From Lachnospiraceae bacterium NK4A179 (GTDB lineage Bacteria; Bacillota; Clostridia; Lachnospirales; Lachnospiraceae), in contig ATWC01000003.1 in NCBI GenBank assembly GCA_000421045.1, positions 62,001 through 126,000 on the forward strand: DNA of 64,000 nt. The letters are read 5' to 3'. Both the position numbers and the translations under genes were made by a program. Shown here one piece after another: positions 9,604-64,000 of this stretch. The notes beneath the pieces are model-generated. The model was not told where the DNA came from. It searched no databases and saw nothing but the letters and a program-made list of their open reading frames with translations. Numbering within the stretch: the stretch's first letter is position 1; every line of letters starts with the position of its first letter.

Positions 9604-10125
9604 ATGAGCAACAACAGTCCATTATTTACGAAGATAGGTCTGGGGAATCTCGATCTGGGTATACTGCTCATAATAGCCTATGTTCTCATCATAGTTGTTG
9701 TAGTCATGTTTTTAATCATGACCGGAAAATACAACAGACTCAAGTCAAGGTATGAGAGATTCATGATGGGATCAAAGGCTGTGTCTCTTGAAAAGGATAT
9801 CCAGGAACTCACTGAGAATGTAAATATTCTTATAGAAAATGACCAGACCAACGCCGATGATATAAAAGAACTTTACAGAAAGCACAGAAAAGCATTCCAG
9901 AAGATGGGGCTTGTTAAATATGATGCTTTCAAGGAAATGGGCGGAAACTTAAGCTTCTCACTTGCACTGCTTGATGAGAACAATGACGGTCTGATCCTTA
10001 ACTCAGTGCATTCAAGCACAGGATGCTATTCATATACAAAGGATATTAAGCAGGGAAAATGCAACATTGAACTGTCCGCAGAGGAAAGTTCGGCACTTGC
10101 ACAGGCTCTTGCAGGAATAAAATAA
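9604..10125 (+). CDS. DUF4446 membrane protein
   Basis: 173 residues, function unknown. One N-terminal transmembrane helix (LLIIAYVLIIVVVVMFLIM) is followed by a coiled-coil-like stretch (about residues 45-95) and a C-terminal domain with NLSFSLALLDENNDGLILNSV and SYTKDIKQG, which I recognise as DUF4446. It is commonly found directly after parB, so a membrane-linked role near chromosome partitioning is possible but unproven. I chose the ATG at 9604 just after a GAGGTGG site overlapping the parB stop; a GTG at 9598 in the same frame would add two residues. Confidence 0.85.
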   Translation: MSNNSPLFTKIGLGNLDLGILLIIAYVLIIVVVVMFLIMTGKYNRLKSRYERFMMGSKAVSLEKDIQELTENVNILIENDQTNADDIKELYRKHRKAFQKMGLVKYDAFKEMGGNLSFSLALLDENNDGLILNSVHSSTGCYSYTKDIKQGKCNIELSAEESSALAQALAGIK

Positions 10126-10153
10126 ATCAAATGTAAGAAAAGAGGATACGAAG

Positions 10154-11440
10154 ATGCTCGACATTAAGTTTTTAAGGGAAAATCCGGATGCAGTAAAGGA
10201 AAATATCAAGAAGAAATTCCAGGATGATAAGCTTCCTCTTGTTGATGAAGTTATCGCCCTTGATAAAGAGAGACGCGAGTGCCAGCAGGAAGCTGACAAT
10301 CTTAAGGCATCACGCAATACTCTTTCAAAGCAGATAGGTGCGCTTATGAAAGAGGGCAAGAAGGATGAAGCCGAGAAGGTAAAGGCAGAAGTTCAGGCAG
10401 ACGCAGACAGACTTTCAGAGCTTGATAAAAATCTTTCCGAACTTGAAGAGAAAGTAAACAAGATCATGATGGTGATCCCTCAGATGATCGATCCTTCAGT
10501 TCCTATCGGTGAGGATGATACTCATAATGTAGAGATCGAAAAGTTCGGCGATCCTGTTGTTCCTGATTTTGAGATACCCTATCACACTGAGATAATGGAG
10601 AGTTTTGACGGTATCGATCTGGATGCGGCAGGACGTGTTGCAGGAAACGGATTCTATTATCTTATGGGAGACATTGCAAGGCTTCATTCTGCAGTCATCT
10701 CCTATGCAAGGGATTTCATGATCGACAGAGGATTCACATACTGCGTACCTCCTTTCATGATCCGTTCAAATGTTGTAACAGGCGTTATGAGCTTTGCCGA
10801 GATGGATGCCATGATGTACAAGATCGAAGGAGAAGACCTTTATCTTATAGGTACCAGTGAGCATTCTATGATAGGTAAGTTCATCGACCAGATAGTTGAT
10901 GAGGAAAAGCTTCCCTATACTCTTACAAGTTATTCACCCTGCTTCCGTAAGGAGAAGGGTTCACACGGTATAGAGGAAAGAGGCGTTTACCGTATCCATC
11001 AGTTTGAAAAGCAGGAGATGATCGTTGTCTGCAAGCCCGAAGAGTCACCTATGTGGTTTGATAAGCTCTGGCAGAATACAGTTGATCTCTTCAGATCACT
11101 GGATATCCCTGTACGTACTCTTGAGTGCTGCTCAGGTGACCTTGCAGATCTTAAGGTTAAGTCTCTTGACGTTGAAGCATGGAGTCCCAGACAGAAGAAG
11201 TACTTTGAAGTGGGCAGCTGCTCCAACTTAGGTGATGCACAGGCCAGAAGATTAAAGATAAGAGTTAAGGCCAAGGACGGAAACAAGTATCTTGCACACA
11301 CTCTGAATAATACAGTAGTTGCTCCTCCCAGAATGCTCATCGCATTCCTTGAGAATAACCTTCAGGCAGACGGTTCAGTCCGCATCCCTGAGGTACTCAG
11401 ACCTTACATGGGAGGAAAGACAGAGATCAGAAAAAAATAA
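10154..11440 (+). CDS. serS: serine--tRNA ligase
   Basis: 428 residues. A class II aminoacyl-tRNA synthetase that charges tRNA-Ser. The N-terminal coiled-coil arm for tRNA binding (about residues 30-100) is followed by a catalytic core with TSEHSMIGKF, motif 2 CFRKEKGSHGIEERGVYRIHQFE and motif 3 NTVVAPPRMLIAFLENN. The motif 2 loop differs from the common bacterial form (EAGS-type followed by DTRGL) and matches the variant I associate with some Clostridia and archaea. The ATG follows an AGAGGA site. No T-box leader fits in the 28-base gap upstream, so expression probably depends on the parB-DUF4446 transcript. Confidence 0.96.
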   Translation: MLDIKFLRENPDAVKENIKKKFQDDKLPLVDEVIALDKERRECQQEADNLKASRNTLSKQIGALMKEGKKDEAEKVKAEVQADADRLSELDKNLSELEEKVNKIMMVIPQMIDPSVPIGEDDTHNVEIEKFGDPVVPDFEIPYHTEIMESFDGIDLDAAGRVAGNGFYYLMGDIARLHSAVISYARDFMIDRGFTYCVPPFMIRSNVVTGVMSFAEMDAMMYKIEGEDLYLIGTSEHSMIGKFIDQIVDEEKLPYTLTSYSPCFRKEKGSHGIEERGVYRIHQFEKQEMIVVCKPEESPMWFDKLWQNTVDLFRSLDIPVRTLECCSGDLADLKVKSLDVEAWSPRQKKYFEVGSCSNLGDAQARRLKIRVKAKDGNKYLAHTLNNTVVAPPRMLIAFLENNLQADGSVRIPEVLRPYMGGKTEIRKK

Positions 11441-16771: not shown

Positions 16772-18187
16772 ATGGATCTGCTTTCTTCAGGGATCATCAT
16801 ATTTTTTCTGCCTGCTGCACTGATCCTTTATTATGGCGCAGGTCATTTTATCAACAGGACCGCACAGAAAATGATACTCTGTACGGTCTCGCTGCTGTTT
16901 TATCTTTTTTTCGGATACATCCCGTTTCTTATCATGTTTGCGGAAGCGCTCGCAGACAGATACTTATCCGTAAAGCTGTCAGAGAAAAAATCGAAAGCAC
17001 TGCTTGCTTTTGCCATTTCGTTAAATGTTCTGGTGCTTTTACTTTTTAAATATCTGAATTTCTTTGCGGGCAATGTCTCGTTACTTGCAGGTAAGGCTTT
17101 TACACCCTTTGATCTGATAATGCCTGTAGGCATAAGCTATATAACTTTCAGTCAGATAGCTTATCTTGTTGACTCATACAGAGGTGAGACAAAAAATGTG
17201 AGCTTTATCGATTATATGATCTTTGTATTTTTCTTTCCAAAGATCATGCTGGGCCCCATCTGTCTTCATGAAGATATCATTCCTGCTCTGAACGATAAAA
17301 AACGCTTTAAGATAAATCCCGAGAATATGGGAATAGGCCTTATGCAGTTTACCACGGGCATGGCAAAAAAGCTTTTGATCGTTCCGCATTTAAGCAGCTC
17401 TGCTGACTTTGGTTTTGCATATATACCGAATCTTACATCAGCGGATGCCTGGTTTTTTGCAATAGTATACATGCTTCAGATCTATCTTGATTTTTCGGGC
17501 TATTGTGATATCGCCTGCGGTATAGCAAAGCTGTTCAATATAGATCTTCCGATGAATTTTGATTCGCCTTATAAGATGATCTCCGTAAGCGATTATTGGG
17601 CAAGATGGCATCTTACTCTCACAAGGTTTTTAAGAAAGTACATTTATTTTCCGCTCGGCGGAAACAGAAAAGGAAAGTTTCGTACATATGTTAATGTCAT
17701 GATCATTTTCCTGATAAGCGGATTCTGGCACGGTGCAAACTGGACATATATTTTCTGGGGCGGTCTTCACGGACTCTGCATGGTATTTGAGAAGATGTTT
17801 AAGAAAGAGCTTGAAAAGATACCGACACTTATCAGATGGATCGTGACAGCGCCTGTTATCGCGCTTCTGTGGGTATTCTTCCGCTGTGAGACTATAGGTG
17901 AGGCTTTTGAATATATCCGTAAGATGTTTTCGTTCAATTCTATTTTGCCAAGCCCTGTTTTCTGTGCATCGCTTGATTTCAATGATGTGCCGTTTATACA
18001 ACAGCATCTGAATATAGCCATGCCTCTGTTTGTTGCAGCAGTTTATGCCGGCTGTGTGTTCATACCGAATATCAGCCGAAGGAAATATAAAGCAAATACG
18101 TTTAACCTGATCGTAACGATTGTGCTGTTTGCGCTGTCATTTATATGTATCAGTGATGTGACACCATTTATATATTTTAAATTTTAA
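16772..18187 (+). CDS. MBOAT membrane O-acyltransferase, second copy
   Basis: 471 residues and a polytopic profile like the protein at 5747-7195. It has the same landmarks: YWARWHLTLTRFLRKYIYFP, LGGNRKGKF and FWHGANWTYIFWGG, with the conserved histidine near residue 320. Differences in the first half (for example FFPKIMLGPICLHEDI in place of the other copy's FFPQLIAGPIVRYRDI) suggest a different partner or acceptor. It starts 7 bases after the cellulase stop and is followed after 3 bases by an SGNH-like protein, so the two form an acylation pair. Its linkage to the cellulase may be only transcriptional. Confidence 0.9.
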   Translation: MDLLSSGIIIFFLPAALILYYGAGHFINRTAQKMILCTVSLLFYLFFGYIPFLIMFAEALADRYLSVKLSEKKSKALLAFAISLNVLVLLLFKYLNFFAGNVSLLAGKAFTPFDLIMPVGISYITFSQIAYLVDSYRGETKNVSFIDYMIFVFFFPKIMLGPICLHEDIIPALNDKKRFKINPENMGIGLMQFTTGMAKKLLIVPHLSSSADFGFAYIPNLTSADAWFFAIVYMLQIYLDFSGYCDIACGIAKLFNIDLPMNFDSPYKMISVSDYWARWHLTLTRFLRKYIYFPLGGNRKGKFRTYVNVMIIFLISGFWHGANWTYIFWGGLHGLCMVFEKMFKKELEKIPTLIRWIVTAPVIALLWVFFRCETIGEAFEYIRKMFSFNSILPSPVFCASLDFNDVPFIQQHLNIAMPLFVAAVYAGCVFIPNISRRKYKANTFNLIVTIVLFALSFICISDVTPFIYFKF

Positions 18188-50513: not shown

Positions 50514-52775
50514 ATGATGAAGCCTGACTTGAAAAAGCCGCTGAGAATGCATGACGGTAACGGCGGCAAAGGAAATCAGAACGGAAGTAACGACAATAAC
50601 AATAATGGAAGCAGTAATGATAACGGAGGACATTCACCCAGCATTATGGTGTTTGTCATCGTTACCTTCCTTGCATTGCTCCTCATAAGTTATTTTGTGG
50701 GACGCACTTCAGCACAGAGTGAAGAGATCACATATGATAAATTCATTCAGATGGTCAAAGATGGCGAGGTAGAAAAGGTTTCTATCGAAGGTGACCGCGT
50801 GATAATAACGGCCAAGGGTGATAAGAAGGATTCCGGAAATCATAACGGGAAGACCTATTTCACAGGACTTGCAGAAGATTCAACTACGGTAACGGATCGT
50901 ATGCTCAGTGCCGGAGTGGAAGTAAAGAGCAAAGTCGAGAACGGATCGAGCCTTCTTATAAACATACTGCTTACATATGTACTGCCGCTTGTCATCATCT
51001 GGATCGCGATGGGCTTCATCTTTAACAGGCTCGGCAAATCCGGAGGCTTCGGTTTTAGTGTAGGCAAGTCAAATGCAAAGTTGTATGAAGGAAAAGAAAC
51101 AGGTATTACCTTCAAGGATGTTGCAGGTGAAGATGAGGCAAAGGAATCACTGGTTGAGATAGTTGATTTCCTTCATAATCCCACAAAATATGCCAAGATC
51201 GGTGCAAAGATACCCAAGGGCGGACTTCTTGTAGGACCTCCCGGAACCGGTAAGACACTTCTTGCAAAGGCTGTTGCCGGTGAGGCGGGTGTACCATTCT
51301 TCTTCCTTTCCGGTTCGGATTTCGTTGAGATTTATGTAGGTGTCGGTGCATCGCGAGTAAGAGATCTTTTCCATGAAGCAGAGAAAAATGCTCCCTGCAT
51401 AATTTTCATCGATGAGATAGATGCCATAGGACGCAGCCGTGATGCAAAGTTCGGCAGTGATACAGAGCGGGAGCAGACACTTAATCAGCTGCTTTCAGAG
51501 ATGGATGGTTTCGATCCAAATAAGGGTATCATAATTCTTGCAGCGACCAACAGACCTGAAGTCCTTGATAAAGCTCTTTTAAGACCCGGACGTTTTGACA
51601 GACGTATCATTGTTGAGGAGCCCGATCTTAAAGGACGTGTTGAGATACTTAAAGTTCATTCAAAAGATGTGCTTCTGGATCAGACTGTCGATCTGGATGC
51701 CATCGCTCTTGCAACTGTAGGCGCTGTAGGTGCCGATCTTGCAAACATGATAAATGAAGCTGCGATCCTTGCGGTAAAGCGCGGCAGAGAATATGTAAGC
51801 CAGAAGGATATGCTTGATGCGGTCGAGCTGGTTAGTATGGGTAAGGAAAAGAAGGACCGCATACTTTCAAAGAAAGAGAGACAGGTTGTTTCCTATCATG
51901 AGACAGGACATGCTCTTATCCATGCGCTTCAGAAGCATACCGAACCTGTCCAGAAGATCACCATCATTCCACGTACCCAGGGAACACTTGGATATGTTCT
52001 TTCATATCCTGAAGAAGAGAAGTTCATGCAGACCGAGAAGGAACTCAGGGCTGAACTTGTCAGCTTACTTGGAGGCCGCGCTGCGGAAGATATAGTATTT
52101 GATACCATCACGACCGGTGCAGCCAATGATATTGAAAAGGCAACAAGGATTGCCAGAGCTATGGTCACACGTTTCGGTATGAGCAAACGCTTCGGTATGA
52201 TGCAGATAGAGAGCTTGGACAATCAATACCTTAACCAGTCTACAACTCTTAACTGTTCTGATGAGACAGCAGCTGCTGTTGATGAAGAAGTGATGAAGAT
52301 CCTCAAGGAAAGCTATAAGGAAGCAAAGAGGATGCTCAAGGAAAACAGGGATGTGCTTGATAAGATAGCTGCATATCTGATCGAGAAGGAAAACATCACC
52401 GGCCATGAGTTCATGGAAATCTACTGTAGGGAAAAGGGACTGCCTATGCCCGAAAAAAACAGGGGTGAAGAAAGTCTTGCCAAGATGAGGAGTGAGAGGG
52501 AAGAACAGAAGAAGAGAGAGGAACAGCTTTCTCCTGCCACGCAGCCCACATCTTTAAGGACAGATATTTATCCTCCTTTGAAGGAGGGACCTCTGCCGCA
52601 GACACCGCCTGTTCCTCCTGCAGTGGCTCCCGCTCCACCTGCTTCGGAGAAAGCTTCTTCAGATGATGAAGCACAGAACGAAGAAAAGGAGATGAGCGAG
52701 GAGGAAAGTTTTGCAGCAGAATTAAAGAAACGCTCATATCATGAAAAATCAGAAGACGACGGAAATAACAACTGA
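50514..52775 (+). CDS. ftsH: ATP-dependent zinc metalloprotease FtsH
   Basis: 753 residues. The N-terminal 45 residues are Asn/Gly-rich and disordered ([12 protein letters not shown]). Helix 1 ([21 protein letters not shown]), an extracytoplasmic segment and helix 2 ([21 protein letters not shown]) follow. The AAA+ domain has [18 protein letters not shown] (Walker A about 240), [11 protein letters not shown] and the second region of homology [20 protein letters not shown]. The zinc protease motif is HETGHALIH (about 461). A Pro-rich/Glu-rich tail follows residue about 660. It degrades unfolded membrane proteins and regulators. The ATG follows GGAGGAAAG. The 3' end overlaps uvrC by 35 bases. 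Confidence 0.97.
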
Positions 52776-54675
52776 TACCTCCGGGCAGGAAAAAGTCAGG
52801 GAGAAAGCTCCCGACCGCATACTGCCCGGCGGTTTTAATGTTACGGAAGAATTGAAAAAGCTGCCCGGTTCACCGGGGGTTTATATCATGCGCGATGAAG
52901 ATGATACCATCATCTATATCGGAAAGGCCGTAAACCTAAGTAACCGTGTGCGCTCCTATTTCAGAGCGAACATTGGCAGAGGTCCCAAGATCGACCGCAT
53001 GGTCAGCCTTATCCGTCGTTTTGAATATATCATTACGGATTCTGAACTTGAGGCTCTTGTCCTCGAGAACAACCTGATAAAAGAGCATGAGCCCAAATAC
53101 AATACCATGCTCCGTGATGATAAGACATATCCTTACATACGCGTCACTGTGAATGAGCCGTATCCGCGCATCATGTTTTCCAGACAGATGAAAAAAGACA
53201 AGGCCAGATATTTCGGACCTTATACAAGTGCGGACGCTGTGCGCAGCACTATAGAACTGATAAACAGACTGTACGGTCTGCGTGACTGTTCCAGAAAACT
53301 TCCTCAGGATATCGGAAAAGAGAGGCCGTGTCTGAATTATCATATTGGGAAATGCTGCGGTCCCTGCATAAAAGACAGAGAGAGTGAAGAACAGTACAGG
53401 CAGAGGCTTTCAGGTGCCATAGATTTTCTGAACGGAAATTATGCTCCGGTGATAAAGCGTCTACAGAACAAAATGGAAGCCGCTTCCGAGGCAATGGAGT
53501 TTGAAGAAGCAGCATCTGTCAGGGATCTTCTGGCAAAAGTGCAGAGCATTGCACAGAAACAGAAGATAGAAGATATGAAGCTCGAAGACAAGGATGTGAT
53601 AGCCCTTGCACGTGATAAGGAAGATGCCGTGGTGCAGGTTTTCTTTGTGCGCGGAGGAAGGATGACCGGCCGAGAGCACTACTATATGAAGCATTCCGAG
53701 GAAGAGAGCGAGGAGAGCATATTAACGAGCTTTATAAAACAGTTTTATGCCGGCACTCCTTTTATTCCAAGAGAGATATTTCTTCCGATCGAAAGCAGCG
53801 AGACAGAGCTCATAGAGCAGTGGCTTAGTGGAAAGAGAGGAAGCCGTGTTTACTTAAAAGCTCCGAAGGCTGGTCAAAAAGAGAAGCTTGTGGAGCTTGC
53901 TGCAAACAATGCAAAGCTTGTTCTTACAAAGGACAGAGAAAAGATCCGCAGGGAGGAAGGCCGTACAATAGGCGCTGTGCGTGAGCTTGAAGAACTACTT
54001 GGGATGGATGGGCTCGACAGGATGGAATCCTTTGATATATCCAATATAAGCGGATATGAGAATGTTGCTTCGATGGTAGTATATGAAAAAGGAAAGCCGA
54101 AGAAGAGCGACTACAGAAAATTCAGGATAAAAACTGTTGAAGGTCCTGATGATTATGCAAGCATGAAGGAAGTGCTCACGAGACGATTCGAGCACGGACT
54201 TAAAGAAATAAGAGAGAACAGGACGGACGGTCATTTTGACCGCTTCCCCGATATTATCCTGATGGACGGCGGCAGAGGACAGGTAAACATTGCACTCGGT
54301 GTGCTTGAAAGCCTGGATCTGCACATACCTGTATGCGGAATGGTCAAGGATGATCATCACAGGACAAGAGGACTCTATTTCAATAATGAGGAGATACCTA
54401 TAGATAAGGACTGTGAGGCATTCAAGCTGCTCACAAGGATACAGGATGAAGTACACAGATTTGCGATAGAGTATCACAGGTCGTTACGCACTAAGGAACA
54501 GGTTCATTCCGTTCTTGATGATATACCCGGAGTAGGACCTAAGAGGAGACTGGATCTGATGAGAGCTTTTGCTTCGTTATCCGATATAAAGGAAGCTGAT
54601 GTGGAAACTCTTATGGAAAAAGGCGGTCTTCCCCGCAACACGGCTCAGAGTATATATGATTTCTTCAGGAAGTAG
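52741..54675 (+). CDS. uvrC: excinuclease ABC subunit C
   Basis: 644 residues. UvrC makes both incisions in nucleotide-excision repair. The N-terminal GIY-YIG nuclease domain is [24 protein letters not shown] motif ([15 protein letters not shown], about 250-265) binds UvrB. The RNase H-like nuclease has [10 protein letters not shown] and [11 protein letters not shown]. Tandem helix-hairpin-helix motifs ([37 protein letters not shown]) close the protein. The annotated ATG lies 35 bases inside ftsH with a weak ribosome site, so translation may depend on ftsH ribosomes. The first 30 residues are a low-complexity extension. It ends right before the promoter of the SGNH gene. Confidence 0.95.
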
Positions 54676-54677
54676 GG

Positions 54678-54683
54678 TATAAT
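54678..54683 (+). promoter_or_regulatory. -10 box just upstream of the SGNH gene (short leader)
   Basis: TATAAT preceded by AGGG, with no recognisable -35 box at 16-18 bases. If used, transcription starts near 54690, only about seven bases before the ATG at 54697, which has no ribosome site. Confidence 0.4.
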
Positions 54684-54696
54684 AGCAATTTGCAGT

Positions 54697-55698
54697 ATGA
54701 AGGACTTTAAGACATTAAAAAGTTTTATAAGGTTCGTGGTTAAGGTCGCGCTTATCGGCTTGATGGCGTTCGGAGTCTGGAAGTTTATCTTCTGGTATTT
54801 CTGGGAATATGACCGCGGTCCCGAAGCATACGCAAGCTCCTATCAGCGCGCGCTGTTAAGACAGATATATGCTCTTGAGGATGAAGACAGAGATCCGGAG
54901 ATAATAGTCTTCGGTTCTTCTTATGTACCTTTCGGAATAGATACAAAGACACTCGAGACAACAGTCGGAGACGGAAGAAAGGCGCAGATACTGGGAATAG
55001 AAGCTGCAATAGGCGTGCCGTATCTTATTCATGTACTTGAAGAGACAGCAAAGCCTGGTGATACGGTTGTTTATATGTTGGGCGAATCAAATCCCGTAAA
55101 TACCGATCTTATCTCGGTTTCGGCAGCACTTGAGCCTGATAAGGAAAAGCTTTTTGCGTTTTGGAAATGGAGAGATGCAAGTCTTCCGAAGTCATATCTT
55201 ACATGGAGAAAGTTTTATGCTTTCATTGTAAGTCCCGTGTCCAACAAGCTTCTGGAAAAGTATTCAAAGAAGCAGCCGGTCTACAATGTCAGTTCCTTTG
55301 ATGAAAACGGAAATATGACCGTTGAACGTATAGGCAGCGAGATGAGTTTCAATGAATCTCATAATGATGTGATCAAAATAGATGAGGTTGAAGAGGGTAG
55401 TATTGAAGCTCTTAATGAATTTGAAAAATGGTGTGCTGAAAATGATGTGGAATTTCTTATAACATATTCTCCCACTGTTGAAGAATCATGGCAGCAGTCG
55501 GATGAGATGTTTAAAAGTTTTGATGCAGATGTGGAAGCAGCAGTTAATGCCCCTGTTCTTGGCGGTTTTGAAGATTACACACTGCCTGCGGAATACTTTT
55601 TTAATCATGACCTCCATTTGAATTCGGAAGGTGCGGTAAAGTATTCTGAAATACTCGGTGAAAGGCTTAAGGAATATTATGGGCAGCGTTCTTTATAA
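54697..55698 (+). CDS. membrane-anchored SGNH-like protein paired with the YidC-sulfatase fusion
   Basis: 333 residues. One N-terminal anchor (about 12-32, FVVKVALIGLMAFGVWKFIFW) leaves an extracellular domain. Block I is IIVFGSSYVPFGID (serine near 75). A Gly/Glu/Ser/Asn turn is YMLGESNPVNTD. The C-terminal Asp and His lie in NHDLHLNSEGAVKYS. This is the DltD/AlgJ-like arrangement, with the nucleophile on a membrane-tethered domain. It has no ribosome site and a -10 box only 13 bases upstream, so it may be near-leaderless. The next gene begins inside its last 20 bases. The pairing with a polytopic enzyme repeats the MBOAT-SGNH layout at 16772-19267, but the partner here is different. Confidence 0.75.
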   Translation: MKDFKTLKSFIRFVVKVALIGLMAFGVWKFIFWYFWEYDRGPEAYASSYQRALLRQIYALEDEDRDPEIIVFGSSYVPFGIDTKTLETTVGDGRKAQILGIEAAIGVPYLIHVLEETAKPGDTVVYMLGESNPVNTDLISVSAALEPDKEKLFAFWKWRDASLPKSYLTWRKFYAFIVSPVSNKLLEKYSKKQPVYNVSSFDENGNMTVERIGSEMSFNESHNDVIKIDEVEEGSIEALNEFEKWCAENDVEFLITYSPTVEESWQQSDEMFKSFDADVEAAVNAPVLGGFEDYTLPAEYFFNHDLHLNSEGAVKYSEILGERLKEYYGQRSL

Positions 55699-58390
55699 TA
55701 TAATCATTCTTCCTGTACAGTATCTTATACAGCTTATTTTTTCGACCGTATGGCTTATGACATACAATGCGGGAGTTTCAATAATAGCAGTAAGTGCTGC
55801 GGTGAATCTTCTCTGTCTTCCTTTGTATAAAAGAGCGGATGCGATGCAGGAGGAGGAACGTCTCAGACAGGAGAAGATGAAACCCTGGATCGATCATATA
55901 GGAAAATACTTTTCCGGTGATGAGCGTTTCATGATGAGACAGGTATATTACAGGGAACAGAAGTATTCGCCTCTAAGTCCAATGAAGGGAATGGTTTCGC
56001 TTCTTCTGCAGATACCTTTCCTTATAGCCGCATACCGTTTTCTTTCAACACTTCCCATACTTAACGGAGAATCATTCTGGATATTCAGTGACCTTTCACA
56101 GCCGGACGGACTGCTGCGCATAGGTTCGCTTTCCATTAATGTGCTTCCGGTTCTTATGACAGTTTTTAATCTGCTTTCATCCGTCATCTACACAAAAGGA
56201 CTTTCATTCAGGGAGCGACTTCAGCCTTATGTGATAGCTATAGCTTTCCTGATCTTTCTTTATCCCTGTCCTTCGGGCCTGGTATTTTACTGGACACTCA
56301 ACAATCTTTTTTCACTGCTTAAGAATGTATTCTTAAAAGTTGTGAAAAATCCTGAGAAGGTACTTTCGATCATTTCGGCTTTATGCGGTGCAGCAATTTT
56401 GATCTGGTCCTTAAGCTCGGGTGCTCTCCTTAAGACAGTAGGTGCCAACAGGAAAGAGGCAGATGCCGGACATATAGTGCTCATAATCGCGGTGGTGCTC
56501 ATCACACTCATACCGCTTGCAAAGCTGCTTTTTGGAAAGAAGATAAAACAGCCCGATCTTCCGGATATGGGAAAGGGACTTTGGGTGATATCAGGTATCT
56601 TATCCGCTGCGGTATTCGGAGGCATCATACCTCTGTCTCTGGTGGCATCATCAGCTGTTGAATTTGTTGATTACGGAACAGGCACAATGCCGCTTGATAC
56701 GGTTCTTGTTCAGTTCTGTATAGCACTTGGCATATTTGTTTTCTGGTGGGGAGTTGTATATCTCACAGCAGATGAAAAGGGAAAGAAATATGTGACTATT
56801 GCTGCAGCAGCCATACCGCCCGTGATAGCAGTGGATTTCATGATATTCGGAAAGACTTTCGGAACGCTTTCAACAGATCTGCTTTATTCCGAGATGATCC
56901 ATTACTCTCCTGCAAGACAGCTTTTAAATATCGCAGGCATCGTGATACTTGCCGCAGTTGTTGTTTTCTTTTGCTGCAAACATAAGCGCATACTGTTTCT
57001 GTCCTATGTTGCGCTTTCGCTTGCTGCATTTTCACTCTGTGCTTCTTCTGTTATGAAGGTAAAGAACGATCTTGCTAAGGCAGGACTCGACAGGAGCCTG
57101 ACTGCATCCGCCTCATCTGAAACAGTGGAGCTTAAGGGATTCAGACTTTCCAGAACAGGAAAGAATGTTGTCGTTATCATGTTGGACAGGGCGATAGGAA
57201 GTTTCGTTCCCGATATAATGGAAGAAAGGCCGGAGCTTAAAGAAGGCTTTAAGGATTTTACATGGTATAAGCAGACAATTTCCTTTGGTGCTCATACCAA
57301 TTTCGGTTCGCCCGAGCTTTTCGGAGGATATGAATACACACCGCAGTCAATGAATGAAAGAAGTGACGAAAGACTTGCGGATAAGCATAATGAATCATTG
57401 AAGGTCCTTCCTAAACTGTTTTCCGAAAACGGTTATCACATTACGGTCTGTGACCTGCCTTATGCCGGTTATTCCGAAGTACCTTCAGAGGAGATTTTTA
57501 AGGATATCAATGATACCGATTGCATATTCATAAATGACGGTCAGTGCATATCCTCTCTTTCGGAAGAAGAAAAGAGCGAGATAACAGCCTCTGGCGGCGG
57601 AAGGAACTGGCGTTTCTTCATGTATGAAGTGATGAAGTCGCTTCCCATTTCACTTAATAAGTTTGTTTACAGCAAAGGTAAATACATGTCCGTAACAAAC
57701 ATACCCACGGATTATATAAATAACTATGCGGCAATGAAGAGTCTGCCTGCACTTACAGAGATAAGTGATGATGAAAAAGGCTGTGTACTTCTCATGAACA
57801 ACGAGATGACTCATGAAGTGGTGACATTGCAGCTTCCCGATTATACCTATCGTTCACATGCCTCAAATGATGAATATGCCGGAGGATATCACGGATTGTC
57901 TTCATGGCACACGGAAGTCAGAGCCTTCATGTGTCTGAATGACTGGTTTGATCTGCTCAAAAAAGAAGGCGTATGGGATAACACAAGGATCATTCTTGCT
58001 TCCGATCATGGTTTCGGGGAAGGTGCGATGGTTCTTGATGACGGATATGATGCACAGGCTTTCATGGCTCTTCTTCTTGTGAAGGATTTTGATTCTGATA
58101 ATACAGAAATGACAGAGGATGATGAGTTTATCACTATAGCTGATGTGCCGCATATGGCAGCAGAGGGTGCGGTAAATGCGGCAGTCAATCCGTATACAAA
58201 AAAGCCGCTTGAGGCTGATGAGGCTCAAAAGGCAGATCCAAAGATCACGGGTTCCGAAAATTATGTGATCACGGAAAATAACGGCGATGTTTTTGATACC
58301 GGAAACGACTCCTGGTATAGCGTTCACGGTGATATTTACGATAAGGATTCATGGGAGATACTGGGTCCCGACAATGCCGCGTCAAATTGA
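55679..58390 (+). CDS. YidC/Oxa1-like domain fused to sulfatase/LtaS-like phosphotransferase domain
   Basis: 903 residues from the ATG at 55679 (AAGGA site). Residues 1-220 follow the YidC/Oxa1 plan: AGVSIIAVSAAVNLLCLPLY (helix 2), a charged hairpin (MQEEERLRQEKM), YSPLSPMKGMVSLLLQIPF, a loop with FWIFSDLSQPDGL, INVLPVLMTVFNLLSSVIYT, and SGLVFYWTLNNLFSLLKN. The groove arginine of known YidC proteins aligns with Asn43. Residues 230-460 carry about seven more helices. From 495 an alkaline-phosphatase-superfamily domain faces outward: VVVIMLDRA (Asp503), AHTNFGSPELFGG (possible nucleophile Thr540), MNNEMTHEV (His712) and ASDHGFGEG (Asp776-His777). LtaS uses Glu, Thr, Asp and His in this order. 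A phosphoglycerol- or phosphoethanolamine-like transferase on a translocase scaffold is my inference. No canonical YidC role is shown. Confidence 0.8.
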   Translation: MGSVLYNIIILPVQYLIQLIFSTVWLMTYNAGVSIIAVSAAVNLLCLPLYKRADAMQEEERLRQEKMKPWIDHIGKYFSGDERFMMRQVYYREQKYSPLSPMKGMVSLLLQIPFLIAAYRFLSTLPILNGESFWIFSDLSQPDGLLRIGSLSINVLPVLMTVFNLLSSVIYTKGLSFRERLQPYVIAIAFLIFLYPCPSGLVFYWTLNNLFSLLKNVFLKVVKNPEKVLSIISALCGAAILIWSLSSGALLKTVGANRKEADAGHIVLIIAVVLITLIPLAKLLFGKKIKQPDLPDMGKGLWVISGILSAAVFGGIIPLSLVASSAVEFVDYGTGTMPLDTVLVQFCIALGIFVFWWGVVYLTADEKGKKYVTIAAAAIPPVIAVDFMIFGKTFGTLSTDLLYSEMIHYSPARQLLNIAGIVILAAVVVFFCCKHKRILFLSYVALSLAAFSLCASSVMKVKNDLAKAGLDRSLTASASSETVELKGFRLSRTGKNVVVIMLDRAIGSFVPDIMEERPELKEGFKDFTWYKQTISFGAHTNFGSPELFGGYEYTPQSMNERSDERLADKHNESLKVLPKLFSENGYHITVCDLPYAGYSEVPSEEIFKDINDTDCIFINDGQCISSLSEEEKSEITASGGGRNWRFFMYEVMKSLPISLNKFVYSKGKYMSVTNIPTDYINNYAAMKSLPALTEISDDEKGCVLLMNNEMTHEVVTLQLPDYTYRSHASNDEYAGGYHGLSSWHTEVRAFMCLNDWFDLLKKEGVWDNTRIILASDHGFGEGAMVLDDGYDAQAFMALLLVKDFDSDNTEMTEDDEFITIADVPHMAAEGAVNAAVNPYTKKPLEADEAQKADPKITGSENYVITENNGDVFDTGNDSWYSVHGDIYDKDSWEILGPDNAASN

Positions 58391-58415
58391 AGTATGTCTG
58401 AAATTGCTGTATCAT
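58387..58415 (+). promoter_or_regulatory. promoter for hprK
   Basis: TTGAAG (58387-58392) overlaps the fusion gene's stop, followed by a 17-base spacer and TATCAT (58410-58415). The leader to the ATG at 58450 is about 30 bases and includes GCAGGAGG. Confidence 0.5.
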
Positions 58416-58449
58416 TAAGAAGATATTTTTAAATGCAGGAGGTTTATAA

Positions 58450-59394
58450 ATGGCTAGTATTAGTCTGCAGCGTCTTATAGATAAATTCAAGATGAAAAAC
58501 CTTACAGGAGAGATCAATATCGATAAGATAAAGATCACCCAGCCTGATATAAACCGTCCGGCTATCCAGATGACGGGTTATTTCGAGCATTATGATTCAA
58601 CACGTCTGCAGATTGTAGGTTTCGTTGAGCATACATATATGCAGTCTCTTTCTGTTGAGCAGAAGACCAAAATTTACAACGAGATACTCAATCATCCGAC
58701 ACCTGCATTTGTTTTTTGCAGAGAACTTGAGCCGGATCCGCTCTTTCTTGAAACAGCGATCAAATACGGCATTCCTGTACTCAGCACATCAAAGGCAACA
58801 TCGGCATTCATGGCCGAGGTCATCAGATGGCTTAATGCAAAGCTTGCTCCCTGCATTCAGGTCCATGGAGTTCTTGTGGATATATACGGTGAAGGCGTGC
58901 TTATCACAGGCGAGAGCGGTATCGGTAAGAGTGAAGCCGCTATAGAGCTTATCAAGCGAGGTCACAGGCTTGTAAGTGACGATGCCGTTCTTATCAGAAA
59001 GGTTTCCGAGGATACGCTGATAGGCAGCGCACCCGAAGTTACTAAGCACCTGATTGAGATCAGGGGTATAGGCATAGTGGATGTGAAGCAGATGTTCGGT
59101 GTATCGAGCGTAAAGGATGACCAGCAGATAGACCTTGTCATCAAGTTAAAGGACTGGTCAAAGGATCAGGAATATGACAGGATGGGTCTTGAAGAGGAGT
59201 ACACCGAGTATCTTGGCAACAAGGTCGTAAGTCATACGATCCCTATAAGACCGGGACGTAACCTTGCGGTAATATGCGAATCGGCAGCCGTTAATCACAG
59301 ACAGAAAAAGATGGGTTATAATGCCGTGGAAGAACTTTATAAGAGACTTCAGGCTTCAATGGCCGTAAAAGAAGAAGAAAACGAGGAGGACTGA
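58450..59394 (+). CDS. hprK: HPr kinase/phosphorylase
   Basis: 314 residues. It phosphorylates HPr on serine 46 and removes the phosphate, setting carbon catabolite repression in Firmicutes. The N-terminal domain (residues 1-130) is followed by the kinase core: P-loop GESGIGKSEAAIEL, LVSDDAVLI, the HprK signature LIEIRGIGIVDVKQMFG, and LVIKLKDW. The length is normal. The ATG follows an AGGAGG site. It begins the run hprK, glcK, murB, acyltransferase, whiA, with short or overlapping spacing to the next two genes. Confidence 0.96.
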   Translation: MASISLQRLIDKFKMKNLTGEINIDKIKITQPDINRPAIQMTGYFEHYDSTRLQIVGFVEHTYMQSLSVEQKTKIYNEILNHPTPAFVFCRELEPDPLFLETAIKYGIPVLSTSKATSAFMAEVIRWLNAKLAPCIQVHGVLVDIYGEGVLITGESGIGKSEAAIELIKRGHRLVSDDAVLIRKVSEDTLIGSAPEVTKHLIEIRGIGIVDVKQMFGVSSVKDDQQIDLVIKLKDWSKDQEYDRMGLEEEYTEYLGNKVVSHTIPIRPGRNLAVICESAAVNHRQKKMGYNAVEELYKRLQASMAVKEEENEED

Positions 59395-59401
59395 CAGCTA
59401 T

Positions 59402-60340
59402 ATGGGCAAGTATGTGTTTGGGGTAGATCTTGGCGGTACAACAGTAAAGATGGGTCTGTTTGATACCGATGGAAATGTACAGGACAAGTGGGAGATCCCC
59501 ACAAGAAAACAGGATGCGGGAAAACTTATCCTTCCTGATATCGCTGAAGCCATTAAGAATAAGATGGCTGAGAAAAATATAGAAGCTTCAGATGTGACCG
59601 GTGTGGGCATCGGAGTGCCCGGTCCCGTTGACGGAGCCGGAATGATATATAAGGCACCGAATCTTGGCTGGGGTGTATTTTCCATAAAGGATACCTTAAG
59701 CGAGCTTCTTGGTGGAATGATCGTTGAAGCCGGAAATGATGCAAATGTTGCAGCTCTCGGTGAGATGTGGCGCGGCGGCGGAAAGGGCTACAGCAGCCTT
59801 GTAATGGTAACCCTCGGTACAGGCGTGGGCGGCGGCATAATAATAAACGGAAAGATCCTTACAGGATCGACCGGTGCAACAGGTGAAATAGGACATATCC
59901 ATATAGTTGACGGTGAGCCTGAAACCTGCGGTTGCGGAAAGCATGGCTGCCTCGAGATGTATGCATCTGCTACAGGAATTGCGCGTCTTGCAAACAGAAG
60001 ACTTGCAAAAGATGATGCACCCACTGTTTTAAGGAATGGTGATATCTCTGCAAAATCTGTATTTGATGCGGTAAAGAACGGAGATAAGGTGGCTATAGAG
60101 ATTGCCGAACAGTTCGGTGATTATCTTGCAAAGGGACTTGCTTCGGTTGCCGCAGCAGTCAATCCCGAAGCTTTTGTAATAGGCGGAGGAGTTTCAAAGG
60201 CAGGTCCTGTGCTGTTTGATTATATAGTTAAGTATTATAGGGAATATGTATTCCACGGAAGCGCTGATGCAAAATTCACGCTTGCTGAACTTGGAAATGA
60301 TGCAGGCATCTATGGTGCTGCAAAACTGGTGCTTTCTTGA
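59402..60340 (+). CDS. glcK: ROK-family glucokinase
   Basis: 312 residues. It phosphorylates glucose with ATP. The N-terminal phosphate loop is FGVDLGGTTVKMGLFD. GIGVPGPVDGAG and LVMVTLGTGVGGGIIINGKI follow. The ROK zinc signature is GHIHIVDGEPETCGCGKHGCLE (Cys-x-Cys-x4-Cys plus His). SVAAAVNPEAFVIGGGVSKAG ends the ATP site. Co-localisation with hprK supports a role in sugar phosphorylation and repression. Its stop codon overlaps the murB TTG start. The ATG lies 7 bases after the hprK stop. Confidence 0.93.
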   Translation: MGKYVFGVDLGGTTVKMGLFDTDGNVQDKWEIPTRKQDAGKLILPDIAEAIKNKMAEKNIEASDVTGVGIGVPGPVDGAGMIYKAPNLGWGVFSIKDTLSELLGGMIVEAGNDANVAALGEMWRGGGKGYSSLVMVTLGTGVGGGIIINGKILTGSTGATGEIGHIHIVDGEPETCGCGKHGCLEMYASATGIARLANRRLAKDDAPTVLRNGDISAKSVFDAVKNGDKVAIEIAEQFGDYLAKGLASVAAAVNPEAFVIGGGVSKAGPVLFDYIVKYYREYVFHGSADAKFTLAELGNDAGIYGAAKLVLS

Positions 60341-61260
60341 ATAAGCTCGAAGAAGAATTAAACAGACTTGCGGGCAGTGAAAATGTTCGCGTGAATGAGC
60401 CTATGGCTTCGCACTGTACTTTTCGTGCAGGCGGGCCGGCGGCTTATTTTGTGACTGCAGATACAAGGGATGCGCTTACGGCTCTCGTCAGGTTTCTTGA
60501 ATCCTCAGGAGAAAAGTATTTTATCCTCGGAAACGGAAGCAATATACTTGTTTCCGATAAAGGCTATGACGGTGTTATGATAAGACTCGGAAAGGCCTTT
60601 GAGGATATTTCGCGTGACGGGGGCAGGTTGATCGCAGGCAGCGCAGCGCCTCTTGTAAGGGTTTCTGTATATGCCTCCGATTGCGGTCTGTCCGGGCTTG
60701 AGTTTGCATCAGGTATACCGGGAACCATAGGCGGAGCTGTTTATATGAACGCAGGGGCCTATGGAGGCGAGATAAAGCAGATCCTTGAATATGCTGATAT
60801 ACTTTACCATAAAGACGGTCATTCCTTTGTGCAGAGAAAAAGCGCTGAGGAGCTGGATCTTTCCTATCGCCACAGTTCTTTAAAAGAATATGCGGGAACG
60901 GTGCTTGAGGCATCATTTGTTCTTAAGGAAGATGACAAGGCTCTTATAAAGCAGAGGATGGATGAACTGAAGATAAAGAGGCAGGAAAAGCAGCCTCTTG
61001 AATACGGCAGTGCGGGCAGCACCTTCAAGCGTCCCGAAGGGTATTTTGCAGGAAAGCTCATAGAAGATTCAGGTTTAAGAGGTGCTTCATGCGGAGATGC
61101 ATGTGTTTCCGAAAAACACTGCGGATTTATAGTCAATAAGGGAAAGGCTTCCGCATCCGAAATATACAGACTTATGTGCGAAGTGCAGGAAAAAGTCAGA
61201 GCGGATCATGGTGTCAGTCTTGAACCCGAGGTAATACTCCTCGGTAATTTCGCTGACTGA
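60337..61260 (+). CDS. murB: UDP-N-acetylenolpyruvoylglucosamine reductase
   Basis: 307 residues. A flavoenzyme that makes UDP-MurNAc from enolpyruvyl-UDP-GlcNAc using NADPH. FAD-binding motifs include FILGNGSNILVSDKG and LEFASGIPGTIGGAVYMNAGAYGGE. The C-terminal substrate domain has YRHSSLKE, GSAGSTFKRPEG (catalytic serine), GKLIEDSGLRGASCGDA and LEPEVILLG (catalytic glutamate). The start is a TTG (TTGAATAAG), which shares bases with the upstream TGA stop, so translation is coupled. rapZ usually follows murB in relatives but does not here. Confidence 0.95.
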   Translation: MNKLEEELNRLAGSENVRVNEPMASHCTFRAGGPAAYFVTADTRDALTALVRFLESSGEKYFILGNGSNILVSDKGYDGVMIRLGKAFEDISRDGGRLIAGSAAPLVRVSVYASDCGLSGLEFASGIPGTIGGAVYMNAGAYGGEIKQILEYADILYHKDGHSFVQRKSAEELDLSYRHSSLKEYAGTVLEASFVLKEDDKALIKQRMDELKIKRQEKQPLEYGSAGSTFKRPEGYFAGKLIEDSGLRGASCGDACVSEKHCGFIVNKGKASASEIYRLMCEVQEKVRADHGVSLEPEVILLGNFAD

Positions 61261-61287
61261 TGACATAAGGAACAAGAACAGATACAG

Positions 61288-62523
61288 ATGAGTGACGATA
61301 AAAAAGGAAAAATAATAATACATGTGGGTGATACATCCAACGTAGAGATCCAGACTGTAGAGTCAGGTCTTGAGGATGATGATATTCAGGTGGAGTATCA
61401 GGAAGCATATCAGGAAGAAGAGATCGAAGTTCCTGTAAAGAAAAAGAAGCGCAAGCATGAGAAAAGGGAAGTATATTTCGATATCCTGAGGATACTTGCC
61501 ATATTTATGGTTCTTTATACACAGACAGACAGTTATCAGTTGTTTGCGGAATGTGTTGCGGGAAGCTTCGGATATATTTTCTTTATGATGCTTTCGGTTG
61601 CGGCATACTGCGGACCGTTTATATTCTTCATGATATCGGGAGCACTTCTTCTGGATAAGGAGGAGACTCTTTCGCAGGTATTTAAAAAACGCATATTACG
61701 TATGCTATGTGTGCTTGTGATCATAACGGTCATGTATTATTTTTCGGATATACTGGCCGGCAAGGACAAACTGGATATCCGTACCTTCTTTGGAGATCTG
61801 TATGCCAAGGAAAGGATCCCGGCACTCTGGTTCCTTTATACATATCTGGGTTTTCTTATCTGTCTGCCGTTCTTAAGAGCAATGGCAAAGAATATGACGG
61901 TAAAGGAATTCCTTTACATGACAATAATCGTATTTGTCATAAGCTTTGTATTTCCCGAGTTTGAGGATAAGATCTTCTACGGCAGATATATTTTCAATAC
62001 AAACTTTTCTCTCGGGTGGCTGACCACATCGATAATCATCTATCCCATAGCGGGTTATTTCCTTCACAAGCGGCTGTCGACAGATATGCTGACAAAGCTG
62101 CTTCCCGTAGTATGGGGTGTAAATCTCGTGGTTATGGGAATAATCGTATACAATACCAAATACTATACGACCTATACTGAAAGTGTAAGATTATACACAG
62201 GTTATTTTTCATGGGGCTGCTTAAGCAATGCTTTTGCAATGTTCATGACAGCCAAGGTATTATTCTCGGGGAAGAAATTCGGACGCATTCCGGAGAAAGT
62301 GATCAGATCGGTTTCAGGCTGTGTTATGGGAGTATATCTTTTTCACCCCGCTGTCTTGGATCGTATCAAGTTCTTTGACAATATCGAGGCAAAGATATTC
62401 GGAGAGGTAACAGGTCCGATGAGGATATTCCCCTGTTTCTTATGGATAGGTGTCGTATTTACAGTCTGTCTGGTGCCTACATGGATCATCAGGCGTCTGC
62501 CATTTGCAAAGAAGATACTCTGA
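61288..62523 (+). CDS. acyltransferase-3-like membrane protein lacking the usual histidine
   Basis: 411 residues. A cytoplasmic N-terminus of about 60 residues (charged, ending KKKKRKHEKR) leads to about ten helices. The family start is recognisable as VYFDILRILAIFMVLYTQTD, but where acyltransferase-3 proteins have a histidine ('NHTG'-like) there is Gln79. A second landmark, CGPFIFFMISGALLL, matches the usual 'P.FfmiSGyll'. C-terminal CVMGVYLFHPAVLDRI is also typical. It may be catalytically altered or use another residue. Its gene sits between murB and whiA, where rapZ would be expected. Its stop is 1 base from the whiA start. Confidence 0.8.
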   Translation: MSDDKKGKIIIHVGDTSNVEIQTVESGLEDDDIQVEYQEAYQEEEIEVPVKKKKRKHEKREVYFDILRILAIFMVLYTQTDSYQLFAECVAGSFGYIFFMMLSVAAYCGPFIFFMISGALLLDKEETLSQVFKKRILRMLCVLVIITVMYYFSDILAGKDKLDIRTFFGDLYAKERIPALWFLYTYLGFLICLPFLRAMAKNMTVKEFLYMTIIVFVISFVFPEFEDKIFYGRYIFNTNFSLGWLTTSIIIYPIAGYFLHKRLSTDMLTKLLPVVWGVNLVVMGIIVYNTKYYTTYTESVRLYTGYFSWGCLSNAFAMFMTAKVLFSGKKFGRIPEKVIRSVSGCVMGVYLFHPAVLDRIKFFDNIEAKIFGEVTGPMRIFPCFLWIGVVFTVCLVPTWIIRRLPFAKKIL

Positions 62524-62524
62524 T

Positions 62525-63394
62525 ATGTCATTTACCGGTGATATCAAAAAAGAAATACTGGGTCATGAAAATGCGGCAAGGCACTGCCTCCTGGCAGAGA
62601 CGGCCGCATATCTTTCGTGTTTGGGAAATCTGGATGACGGTAAACTTTCTATCGTGCCTGAAAATGATCAGGTTTCGGAAAGGATAGCATCACTGTTTTT
62701 TAAACTGTACGGGGTAAAGAGCTTTGAGATAACGGATGAAACAAAGCGTCTTGAAATACTTCATTCTGTCAAAATGACTGAGGGTATAGGTGATACGGTA
62801 TCAGCGGTGCTCCTTAAGATGAGCTGCTGCAGAAGGGCAGCGCTTACCGCATGGTTTATGTGCATGGGATCGATAAGCGATCCAAAGAAGAATTACCACT
62901 GCGAATTTGCCTGCAGGAGTGAGGCTCAGGCACAGCAGATAATAGAATTGCTTTCGGACTTTGATGTGAGCGCTCACAGCATGATCAGGAAAGGAAGAAG
63001 CGTTGTTTACATCAAGGAGAGCGAGAGCATAGCAGAGCTTTTAAATATCGTAGGTGCACATGTAGCACTGATGGATCTTGAGAATCTGCGCATAGAGAAG
63101 GAACTGCGAAACGATGTGAACCGTGCCGTCAACTGCGATACAGCCAATGCCAGAAAGCTTGCCGATGCCTCGTCAAGACAGATCGAAGATATAAGGCTTT
63201 TAATGGATAACGGAGCATTTGCATCCCTTCCCGACGGACTTAAGGAGATAGCATCCGTAAGGCTTGAGAATCCTTATGTTTCGCTTGAAGAACTGGGAAA
63301 GCTCTTAGATCAGCCGATAGGCAAATCCGGGGTTAACCACAGATTAAGAAAGCTGTCCGAGGCTGCCGATAAGCTCAGAAAAGGGGACTCATAA
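62525..63394 (+). CDS. whiA: DNA-binding protein WhiA
   Basis: 289 residues from the ATG at 62525, which overlaps the acyltransferase stop region; the longer frame from 62450 crosses that gene. The N-terminal homing-endonuclease-like (LAGLIDADG) domain has MSFTGDIKKEI, LLAETAAYLSCLG and AALTAWFMCMGSISDPKKNYHCEFACRS. The C-terminal helix-turn-helix contains ASVRLENPYVSLEELGKLLD and GKSGVNHRLRKLSEAA, the most conserved part. In Firmicutes WhiA affects cell division and, in the hprK-murB-rapZ neighbourhood, may link sugar status to growth. The stop overlaps the convergent TraX-like gene by 6 bases. Confidence 0.94.
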   Translation: MSFTGDIKKEILGHENAARHCLLAETAAYLSCLGNLDDGKLSIVPENDQVSERIASLFFKLYGVKSFEITDETKRLEILHSVKMTEGIGDTVSAVLLKMSCCRRAALTAWFMCMGSISDPKKNYHCEFACRSEAQAQQIIELLSDFDVSAHSMIRKGRSVVYIKESESIAELLNIVGAHVALMDLENLRIEKELRNDVNRAVNCDTANARKLADASSRQIEDIRLLMDNGAFASLPDGLKEIASVRLENPYVSLEELGKLLDQPIGKSGVNHRLRKLSEAADKLRKGDS

Positions 63395-64000
63395 AAGGAA
63401 TACTACTATCAGCCCAAAGATCAACAGATGAGCGGGGTAGTAGAAATAAAAGAAATATTTGAGCTTACTTCCTTTGGTCCCGTTATAAAGTGCTATTGGC
63501 CATATGGCTATAAAGGCGAAGAGTTCCGAAGGCGACGAGATGAGGAGTATCGAGCAGGTTACGAGCATTGCCACGATACGGTTTTTCCTGAAAAGCCATG
63601 CGGCACATATTGCCAGTACTCCTACAAAAGAATAGTCGGTACGAAGGAAAAATGCCGCCACTGAAGCAGCTACCGTGAGCAATATGTATGAGACCCATCG
63701 TAAGGCGGGTTTTTCTGTTTTTTTATCCACTTCCTTCATAATGGCTATGGCGGCTACGGAAAGAGCCAGTGTAAAAAAGACATTCTGATCCTTTGGGAAA
63801 AAGAATGAATCATTATTTGCCATATCAAAAGGTATCTCTGAGATCAGGGCAAAGACAGACAGTCTTGCCAGATATTTCCAGATGTTCCTGGTGTAGCGGC
63901 AGCCTTCCGTAATGAGAAAGATATAAATGGGAAAGGCTATGCGCCCGATCAGGCGCATTATAATGTATAAGGATTTGTATTCCGGGTGAATGATAAAATC
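63389..64000 (-). CDS. TraX-like membrane protein, N-terminus beyond window edge
   Basis: Reading leftward the frame is open to the window edge (204 codons including stop), so the first ATG at 63958 is probably internal. About six helices remain. The TraX pattern is present: EYKSLYIIMRLIGRIAFPIYIFLITEG, then ARLSVFALISEIPFDMANN, DQNVFFTLALS and the C-terminal YFFYFYYPAHLLIFG. TraX proteins were named from plasmid pilin acetylation, but chromosomal Firmicutes members have unknown roles. It is convergent with whiA. Confidence 0.85.
   Translation of the reverse strand, partial: DFIIHPEYKSLYIIMRLIGRIAFPIYIFLITEGCRYTRNIWKYLARLSVFALISEIPFDMANNDSFFFPKDQNVFFTLALSVAAIAIMKEVDKKTEKPALRWVSYILLTVAASVAAFFLRTDYSFVGVLAICAAWLFRKNRIVAMLVTCSILLISSPSELFAFIAIWPIALYNGTKGSKLKYFFYFYYPAHLLIFGLIVVFLL

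Follow-up and report, generated by a model that had tools for sequence, protein, structure and literature searches.

A YidC-like/alkaline-phosphatase-superfamily fusion protein of Lachnospiraceae and a proposed three-domain machine for transmembrane transfer of phospho-headgroups

What does a YidC-like domain do when it is joined to an extracellular phosphotransferase? The question is raised by a gene in a 64,000-nucleotide stretch of the Lachnospiraceae bacterium NK4A179 genome (contig ATWC01000003.1, positions 62,001 to 126,000; hereafter the window), which encodes a 903-aa fusion in which a YidC-like domain is followed by seven more helices and by an alkaline-phosphatase (AP)-superfamily ectodomain (Table 1). 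The original prediction, made from the sequence of the window, had combined the fusion with an overlapping gene for a membrane-anchored SGNH-like protein into a surface-polymer decoration system, the YidC-like domain serving as channel or scaffold for a lipid-linked substrate. We have found a different recurring partner, a protein with a Glyphos_transf domain, which lies outside the window and had been missed. We propose, with chances that we consider evenly balanced, a three-domain machine that transfers phospho-headgroups across the membrane, of which the fusion would be the half responsible for membrane passage and the outer step. The proposed three-part assembly itself (Glyphos, YidC-like, AP) is well supported by comparative genomics, from a recurring three-domain set, varied fusions and linkage to headgroup-activation genes. 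It is apparently undescribed: searches of the open-licence PMC literature for the architecture or its parts showed no description among the titles and abstract openings listed.

Architecture and spread of the fusion

The 903-residue product is a genuine fusion, with an AlphaFold2 model of pLDDT 91.7. Its YidC-like domain matches PF02096 with 87.6 bits (cut-off 35; E 1.1e-24) and TIGR03592 with 84.3 bits, equal to the cut-off of 84.3, and a profile search against the PDB matched it to YidC structures; residues 1-221 are assigned by homology to the YidC/Oxa1 family, as had been claimed for residues 1-220. The seven helices that had been read after this domain were recovered in the model and by hydropathy. 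A fold search with the AlphaFold model found the LtaP/LtaS fold for the ectodomain, which on this predicted structure shares the AP-superfamily fold of LtaS-type phosphotransferases. The catalytic residues, described earlier (H712 apart) as standing in LtaS-like order, are kept in 88 of 88 fusions (D503, T540, H712, D776, H777); we assume their match to LtaS residues from the order of the motifs, rather than from a residue-level superposition. The fusion thus has the ectodomain fold and LtaS-like catalytic residues of LtaS/LtaP and GacH-type phosphotransferases, but its membrane part consists of a YidC-like domain and seven helices, not the five helices of the LtaS membrane domain, and its phyletic profile is tied very closely to that of a cytosolic Glyphos_transf protein. 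A role in defence was rejected, as neither the fusion nor the SGNH-like protein was matched in PADLOC.

Among 60 genomes searched, a strong fusion match (E under 1e-60) was present in 27 of the 35 that belong to the genus of the window and absent from the 25 others, and wider genome samples placed the fusion in other genera and families as well; these genome searches score few candidates per genome, which makes absences less sure than presences. A contig scan gave at least 588 candidate stretches, 558 of them coding for a relative at E <= 1e-3. The 77 loci kept, which are the best of the matches listed and no random sample, comprise 69 from Clostridia, one each from Erysipelotrichia, Negativicutes (Schwartzia succinivorans DSM 10502), Coriobacteriia and 'Actinomycetes' (a metagenome-assembled genome, MAG), two from Treponema (MAG contigs) and two without a class label. 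Single frames of 820-1000 aa make up 88 of the 100 fusion open reading frames (ORFs) at these loci. With so many single-frame fusions across loci, the fusion is therefore widespread and not a frame artefact of one assembly, the outcome that the original prediction had named as fatal to it. Alignment A2 took 87 of the 100 ORFs, for which strand, a complete end and a length of 820-1000 aa were the criteria. Two loci, L069 and L072, were dropped because no ORF of the fusion there exceeded 700 aa, leaving the 75 loci counted below.

The genome of the window carries three fusion copies and one housekeeping YidC. The third copy (L036:12187-14793, contig C6) lies in a gene cluster of exopolysaccharide type that also encodes glycosyltransferases and a Bac_transf sugar transferase. 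Up to nine copies were found within 66 kb of one contig of another genome (G030:C73:487896-554069), with genes for YfhO-type and other large membrane proteins between them; they may be a diversifying set of decoration enzymes.

The Glyphos_transf partner and its gene neighbourhood

A Glyphos_transf partner is encoded in the same operon as the fusion at 57 of the 75 loci and within the locus at 60. It is a protein of ~420 aa with an N-terminal membrane segment, LYIDPGTGSMLF, followed by the Glyphos_transf domain. Its gene is directly upstream of the fusion 49 times and directly downstream 14 times. Most upstream copies overlap the fusion gene by 4 bases or are 0-6 bases away from it, and the downstream spacing is -14 to 138 bases. 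Like TagF/TagB-type Glyphos_transf enzymes, the partner exceeds the PF04464 cut-off (44.4 bits against 22.1 for the partner of L057) and conserves His154, His157 and an RPHP motif (21 of 21), to which we presume a catalytic role. Unlike them, it carries the N-terminal membrane segment YIDPGTGSM, is found beside choline/aminoethylphosphonate genes and is fused to YidC-like domains in relatives.

Fusion and partner also occur in the same genomes. Of 391 class genomes, 12 have the fusion; the partner, at over 500 bits, was found in 11 genomes, each of which is a fusion genome. Three more genomes had weak Glyphos matches under 200 bits. In 299 family genomes (298 genera), 15 had the fusion, although only its YidC part was listed for one of these (G494), and a strong partner was present in 14, all among the 15. 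The hypergeometric probabilities, which ignore descent, are 2e-20 and 4e-23, respectively.

The three domains are joined in other ways as well. Single frames of 1203-1376 residues that contain all three occur at six places in four genomes (G002, G005 twice, G008, G009 twice), in the order YidC, Glyphos, AP, which is permuted to AP, YidC, Glyphos in L213; when four of the six were searched with Pfam, three exceeded the Sulfatase cut-off and L210 fell short of it. At two other loci (L236 in G527, L237 in G724), a YidC-Glyphos protein is neighbored by an AP-fold protein. All 13 further family genomes with weak Glyphos matches (under 220 bits) also matched the three-domain query over its YidC-Glyphos stretch, residues 1-637, the frames being 594-715 residues long. 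In G195, G687, G717, G728 and G731 the listed match starts no earlier than midway through the YidC domain, and in G728 it contains a stop, so that the YidC part is less sure there. A YidC-like companion, fused or separate, was present in 27 of 27 genomes with such a Glyphos protein at E <= 1e-40, the YidC part being less sure in five. This reshuffling of the same three domains, as seen in the sequences, is the strongest evidence that the YidC, Glyphos and AP domains would act together.

Just upstream of two of the three-domain genes lies a small membrane ORF (L212:8380-8772, L211:8275-8667; a 131-aa frame), which in L212 contains YAHAYIDPSAVTYMIQ and looks like the N-terminal segment of the separate Glyphos proteins in detached form. 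Large lipoprotein-like proteins flank other three-domain genes (L214:3601-5421 and 9483-11426; L215:3372-5210 and 9264-11243), and some of these presumably resemble CotH-kinase-like proteins.

The operon neighbours include genes for headgroup activation. A Pfam scan covered 121 of 234 operon neighbours, and in the 25 of 97 matched families that were listed the counts were NTP_transf_3 21, choline kinase 10, EamA transporters 7, aminotransferases 7, CTP_transf_like 5, phosphoenolpyruvate (PEP) mutase 3 and LicD 3. A homology search found one or more headgroup-type genes (choline kinase, LicB-, LicC/PntC-, LicD- or TagD-like, PEP mutase, decarboxylase) at 34 of the 75 loci, with choline kinase at 15, PEP mutase or phosphonopyruvate decarboxylase at 8 and LicC/PntC-like genes at 29. 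The queries were drawn from such loci and from the window genome; they were positive at 26 of 44 loci of at least 16 kb and, used in the same way, at 0 of 20 control regions of 18 kb, hand-picked from nine genomes (Fisher 3e-6). A narrower headgroup set was positive in 30 of 60 loci with the Glyphos partner versus 2 of 15 without it.

In the window genome itself, a Glyphos_transf gene with the YIDPGTGSM segment lies on contig C45 (L135:1491-7275) inside a putative aminoethylphosphonate operon, together with a PEP mutase/cytidylyltransferase, a LicC/PntC-like nucleotidyltransferase, a thiamine-pyrophosphate-type decarboxylase and an aminotransferase (labels by resemblance). The same aminoethylphosphonate-type set surrounds the YidC-Glyphos and AP pair of L237, where PEP mutase and LicC/PntC were identified by homology search and the decarboxylase and aminotransferase by resemblance. 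The nucleotidyl-activation step of such pathways has been identified, with LicD-like transferases noted nearby (Rice et al. 2019, PMC6697681). PntC/LicC activation would supply the activated headgroups whose genes adjoin the fusion system; the transferases of that paper are LicD-like, however, and the sections drawn on here describe no YidC-type transferase. The fusion system is a candidate for the headgroup transfer step after nucleotidyl activation.

A proposed relay and its alternatives

In the relay that we propose, a cytosolic, membrane-anchored, TagF/TagB-like Glyphos_transf enzyme would take a group activated with cytidine diphosphate (CDP) or cytidine monophosphate (CMP) and load it onto a membrane lipid. 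The carried group would be phosphocholine, aminoethylphosphonate or perhaps glycerol phosphate. The loaded lipid would cross the bilayer via the polar groove of the YidC-like domain, and the outward-facing AP-superfamily domain would then move the group through Thr540 onto a surface polymer. The passage step is plausible because the passages cited from PMC10491306 describe lipid scrambling by YidC, Oxa1 and Get1, both in vitro and in simulation. A lipid-linked decoration role is supported by the Glyphos co-occurrence, the three-domain fusions and the CDP/CMP-headgroup genes. What stands of the earlier interpretation is the YidC-fold module working with an LtaS-type phosphotransferase on a lipid-linked substrate, which is the most likely reading; the SGNH-like protein as an integral partner has fallen away. 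The relay follows the logic of multi-component transmembrane glycosylation (GT-A, flippase, GT-C), in which, in the part of PMC8035078 cited, a lipid is charged inside, flipped and used for transfer outside. The comparison covers this logic alone, as the components here come from other families: phospho-headgroups are handled and not sugars, and a YidC fold and an AP fold stand in place of GtrA/Wzx and GT-C.

A more specific claim is possible, and we put it forward tentatively: that the YidC fold no longer inserts proteins and moves headgroup-charged lipid between cytosolic TagF-like and outer LtaS-like transferases, thereby supplying the missing late steps of phosphocholine/aminoethylphosphonate display in many Clostridia and some Actinomycetota. 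If true, the YidC/Oxa1 fold would gain a natural job in lipid-linked transport, fitting the lipid scrambling by insertases, and concrete genes would be at hand for the placement of phosphocholine and aminoethylphosphonate on the surfaces of gut and rumen bacteria. Even without flipping, a three-domain set that occurs in many genera and for which no name was found allows re-annotation of proteins matched only by YidC or sulfatase domains.

Several points weigh against the proposed relay. The donor, the lipid, the flipping step, the acceptor and the chemistry are what we infer. The co-occurrence figures carry no correction for descent or for joint transfer of the operon genes. None of the three fusion copies of the window genome, the window copy included, adjoins a Glyphos gene; the role of the window copy therefore rests on the family, and it would act in trans with one of the two Glyphos proteins of its genome. 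Of the genomes with YidC-Glyphos proteins, only two (G527, G724) were seen to have an AP-fold gene next door; the best AP match lies ~66 kb away in G628 and on another contig in G014, G634 and G687, and the others have no AP match listed at E <= 1e-40. No headgroup-type gene is present in the locus DNA examined at 41 of the 75 loci. The fold search with the whole fusion model widely covered only residues 493-903, the AP domain filling the list, so that the lack of YidC rows there is no evidence on the YidC part. Finally, Glyphos_transf enzymes usually build polymers in the cytosol, and the product could be a chain instead of a group carried by a lipid.

This last point leads to a polymer synthase, in which the Glyphos domain makes a teichoic-acid-like chain in the cytosol; this chain would leave by way of the YidC-like domain and the extra helices, and the AP domain would attach or trim it outside. 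PF04464 includes TagF/TarF-type enzymes, a single-chain fusion would suit a synthase-plus-export machine, and one Glyphos locus of the window genome has TagD-like, LicD-like and YfhO-like genes (labels by resemblance). We nevertheless regard it as unlikely: the commonest recognised neighbours are choline/aminoethylphosphonate activation genes, which make caps and not repeat units, and LtaS-fold enzymes act in their known members on lipid-borne head groups. Similarly doubtful is an LtaS/GacH-like glycerol-phosphate transferase that uses outer-leaflet phosphatidylglycerol, with the YidC-like domain as a scaffold or a means to raise the local donor supply. It would fit the LtaS/LtaP fold, the conserved catalytic residues and the position of two of the three fusion copies of the window genome among glycosyltransferase or exopolysaccharide genes, but the near-perfect match with the cytosolic Glyphos partner and the YidC-Glyphos fusions would be left unexplained.

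We consider it improbable that the YidC-like domain is a dedicated insertase for a cognate membrane protein of the polymer pathway. Like YidC/Oxa1 insertases, residues 1-221 match the family at or over the cut-offs, and the aromatic pair Tyr204-Trp205 is kept in 88 of 88 fusions. The polar Asn164, Asn208 and Asn209 are also kept in 88 of 88. Unlike the insertases, the domain is joined to transferase domains, a fusion to both transferases that insertion would not explain, has many paralogues per genome, and lacks the groove Arg: residue 43 is Asn in 80, Ser in 7 and Gln in 1, and Arg or Lys in none of the 88, versus Arg or Lys in 30 of 31 stand-alone YidCs of an order-wide set. The sole exception in that set is the window genome's own housekeeping YidC (L037:4050-5381, - strand), and all seven housekeeping YidCs of the window's genus (the others being L187 and L189-L193) lack the groove Arg, with Tyr in six and Asn in one. 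The three-domain YidC-Glyphos-AP proteins have Lys at this position. The literature terms the groove Arg strictly conserved; in the passages cited from PMC8920935, the Escherichia coli single mutant R366A is fully active, whereas neutral replacement abolished function in YidC2 of Streptococcus mutans, where the residue corresponding to Trp205 is also Trp. Because the same-genus housekeeping YidCs also lack the Arg and E. coli YidC tolerates its loss, which leaves insertion possible, we rejected the missing Arg as decisive proof against insertase activity; it is only suggestive. In a YidC-domain tree, in which the mis-framed row C_L215 is to be disregarded, the domains of the fusion group in a single clade (100/100); long branches underlie the link to the three-domain proteins, which was therefore not used.

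That the SGNH-like protein and the fusion make up one acyl/phospho decoration system, as first proposed, appears very improbable. The 20-base overlap of the two genes is real, an adjacent pair occurs in XPB1003 (G027), a different fusion paralogue (38% identical) abuts the uvrC side of the same SGNH gene in G020, and in Schwartzia (L129) a GDSL-type gene precedes the fusion at a distance of three genes. That one SGNH gene is found next to two different fusions is a residual hint of a link. Against this, G002, G026 and G034 have the SGNH gene between uvrC and hprK but no fusion there, the gene stands directly after an MBOAT gene in G004, G007, G014, G018 and G025, and among the 75 fusion loci a clear homologue is found at one, plus a 16-bit match in L061. 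As a general rule, the SGNH-like protein was rejected as a core partner.

The SGNH-like neighbour and its locus

Homologues of the SGNH-like protein were found in 20 of the 60 genomes searched, all in the window's genus, and three of the best 18 matches (G000, G020, G027) adjoin a fusion gene. The other neighbourhoods were judged from flanking DNA, those in G006, G011, G015, G022 and G031 from contig numbers alone. The uvrC-SGNH-hprK locus has a different insert in G003, and G004, G010 and G018 carry the SGNH homologue with no strong fusion match (none, E 3.8e-5 and none, respectively). The MBOAT neighbour was identified by Pfam for the G007 copy and by 53-95% identity to that copy for the other four.

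In 11 homologues, GSS (73-75), G100, N132 and H307 are invariant, which we take to be the Ser, Gly, Asn and His blocks, and DxxH reads HxxH (His304) in 11 of 11. No family match was returned in Pfam or other family searches, a profile of the 11 homologues against the PDB and Pfam gave nothing credible, and a model from a two-row alignment (pLDDT 51) had no Foldseek match at E <= 0.001. The SGNH label of this product is unproven.

Within the window, 52741-62523 is a conserved locus of uvrC, the SGNH-like gene, hprK, a ROK kinase, murB and acyltransferase-3, into which the fusion gene is placed as a variable insert. Homologues of the acyltransferase-3 protein occur in the six other uvrC-SGNH loci examined (L056, L226-L229, L232). 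This protein is a candidate partner of the SGNH-like protein, not of the fusion, and the SGNH-like protein may be an O-acylation component.

Table 1. Positions in the window of the fusion, its parts and neighbouring genes
Feature	Position	Strand	Basis
YidC-like/AP-superfamily fusion, 903 aa	55679..58390	+	
YidC/Oxa1-like domain, residues 1-221	55679..56341	+	PF02096, PDB YidC by profile, helices in model
Asn43, at the YidC groove Arg position	55805..55807	+	Alignment; R366 in E. coli, Arg in 3wo6
Seven further transmembrane helices, residues 225-467	56351..57079	+	AlphaFold2 model and hydropathy
Extracytoplasmic AP-superfamily domain, residues 488-903	57140..58387	+	Model and fold search
Asp503, presumed metal-site residue	57185..57187	+	88/88 conserved
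Thr540, presumed nucleophile	57296..57298	+	88/88 conserved
His712, presumed active-site His	57812..57814	+	88/88 conserved
Asp776-His777, presumed metal-site residues	58004..58009	+	88/88 conserved
SGNH-like membrane-anchored protein, 333 aa, probably no integral part	54697..55698	+	Motifs, synteny
Acyltransferase-3 protein of the uvrC-SGNH-hprK-ROK-murB-AT3 locus	61288..62523	+	PF01757

Elsewhere in the window, two ORFs (5747-7195 and 16772-18187) match the SGNH-associated MBOAT protein with 36% and 28% identity over ~260 residues, and are possible O-acylation genes by this resemblance. Near the acyltransferase-3 end of the locus, a TraX-family protein (PF05857, E 1.3e-38) is encoded at 63389-63958 on the - strand.

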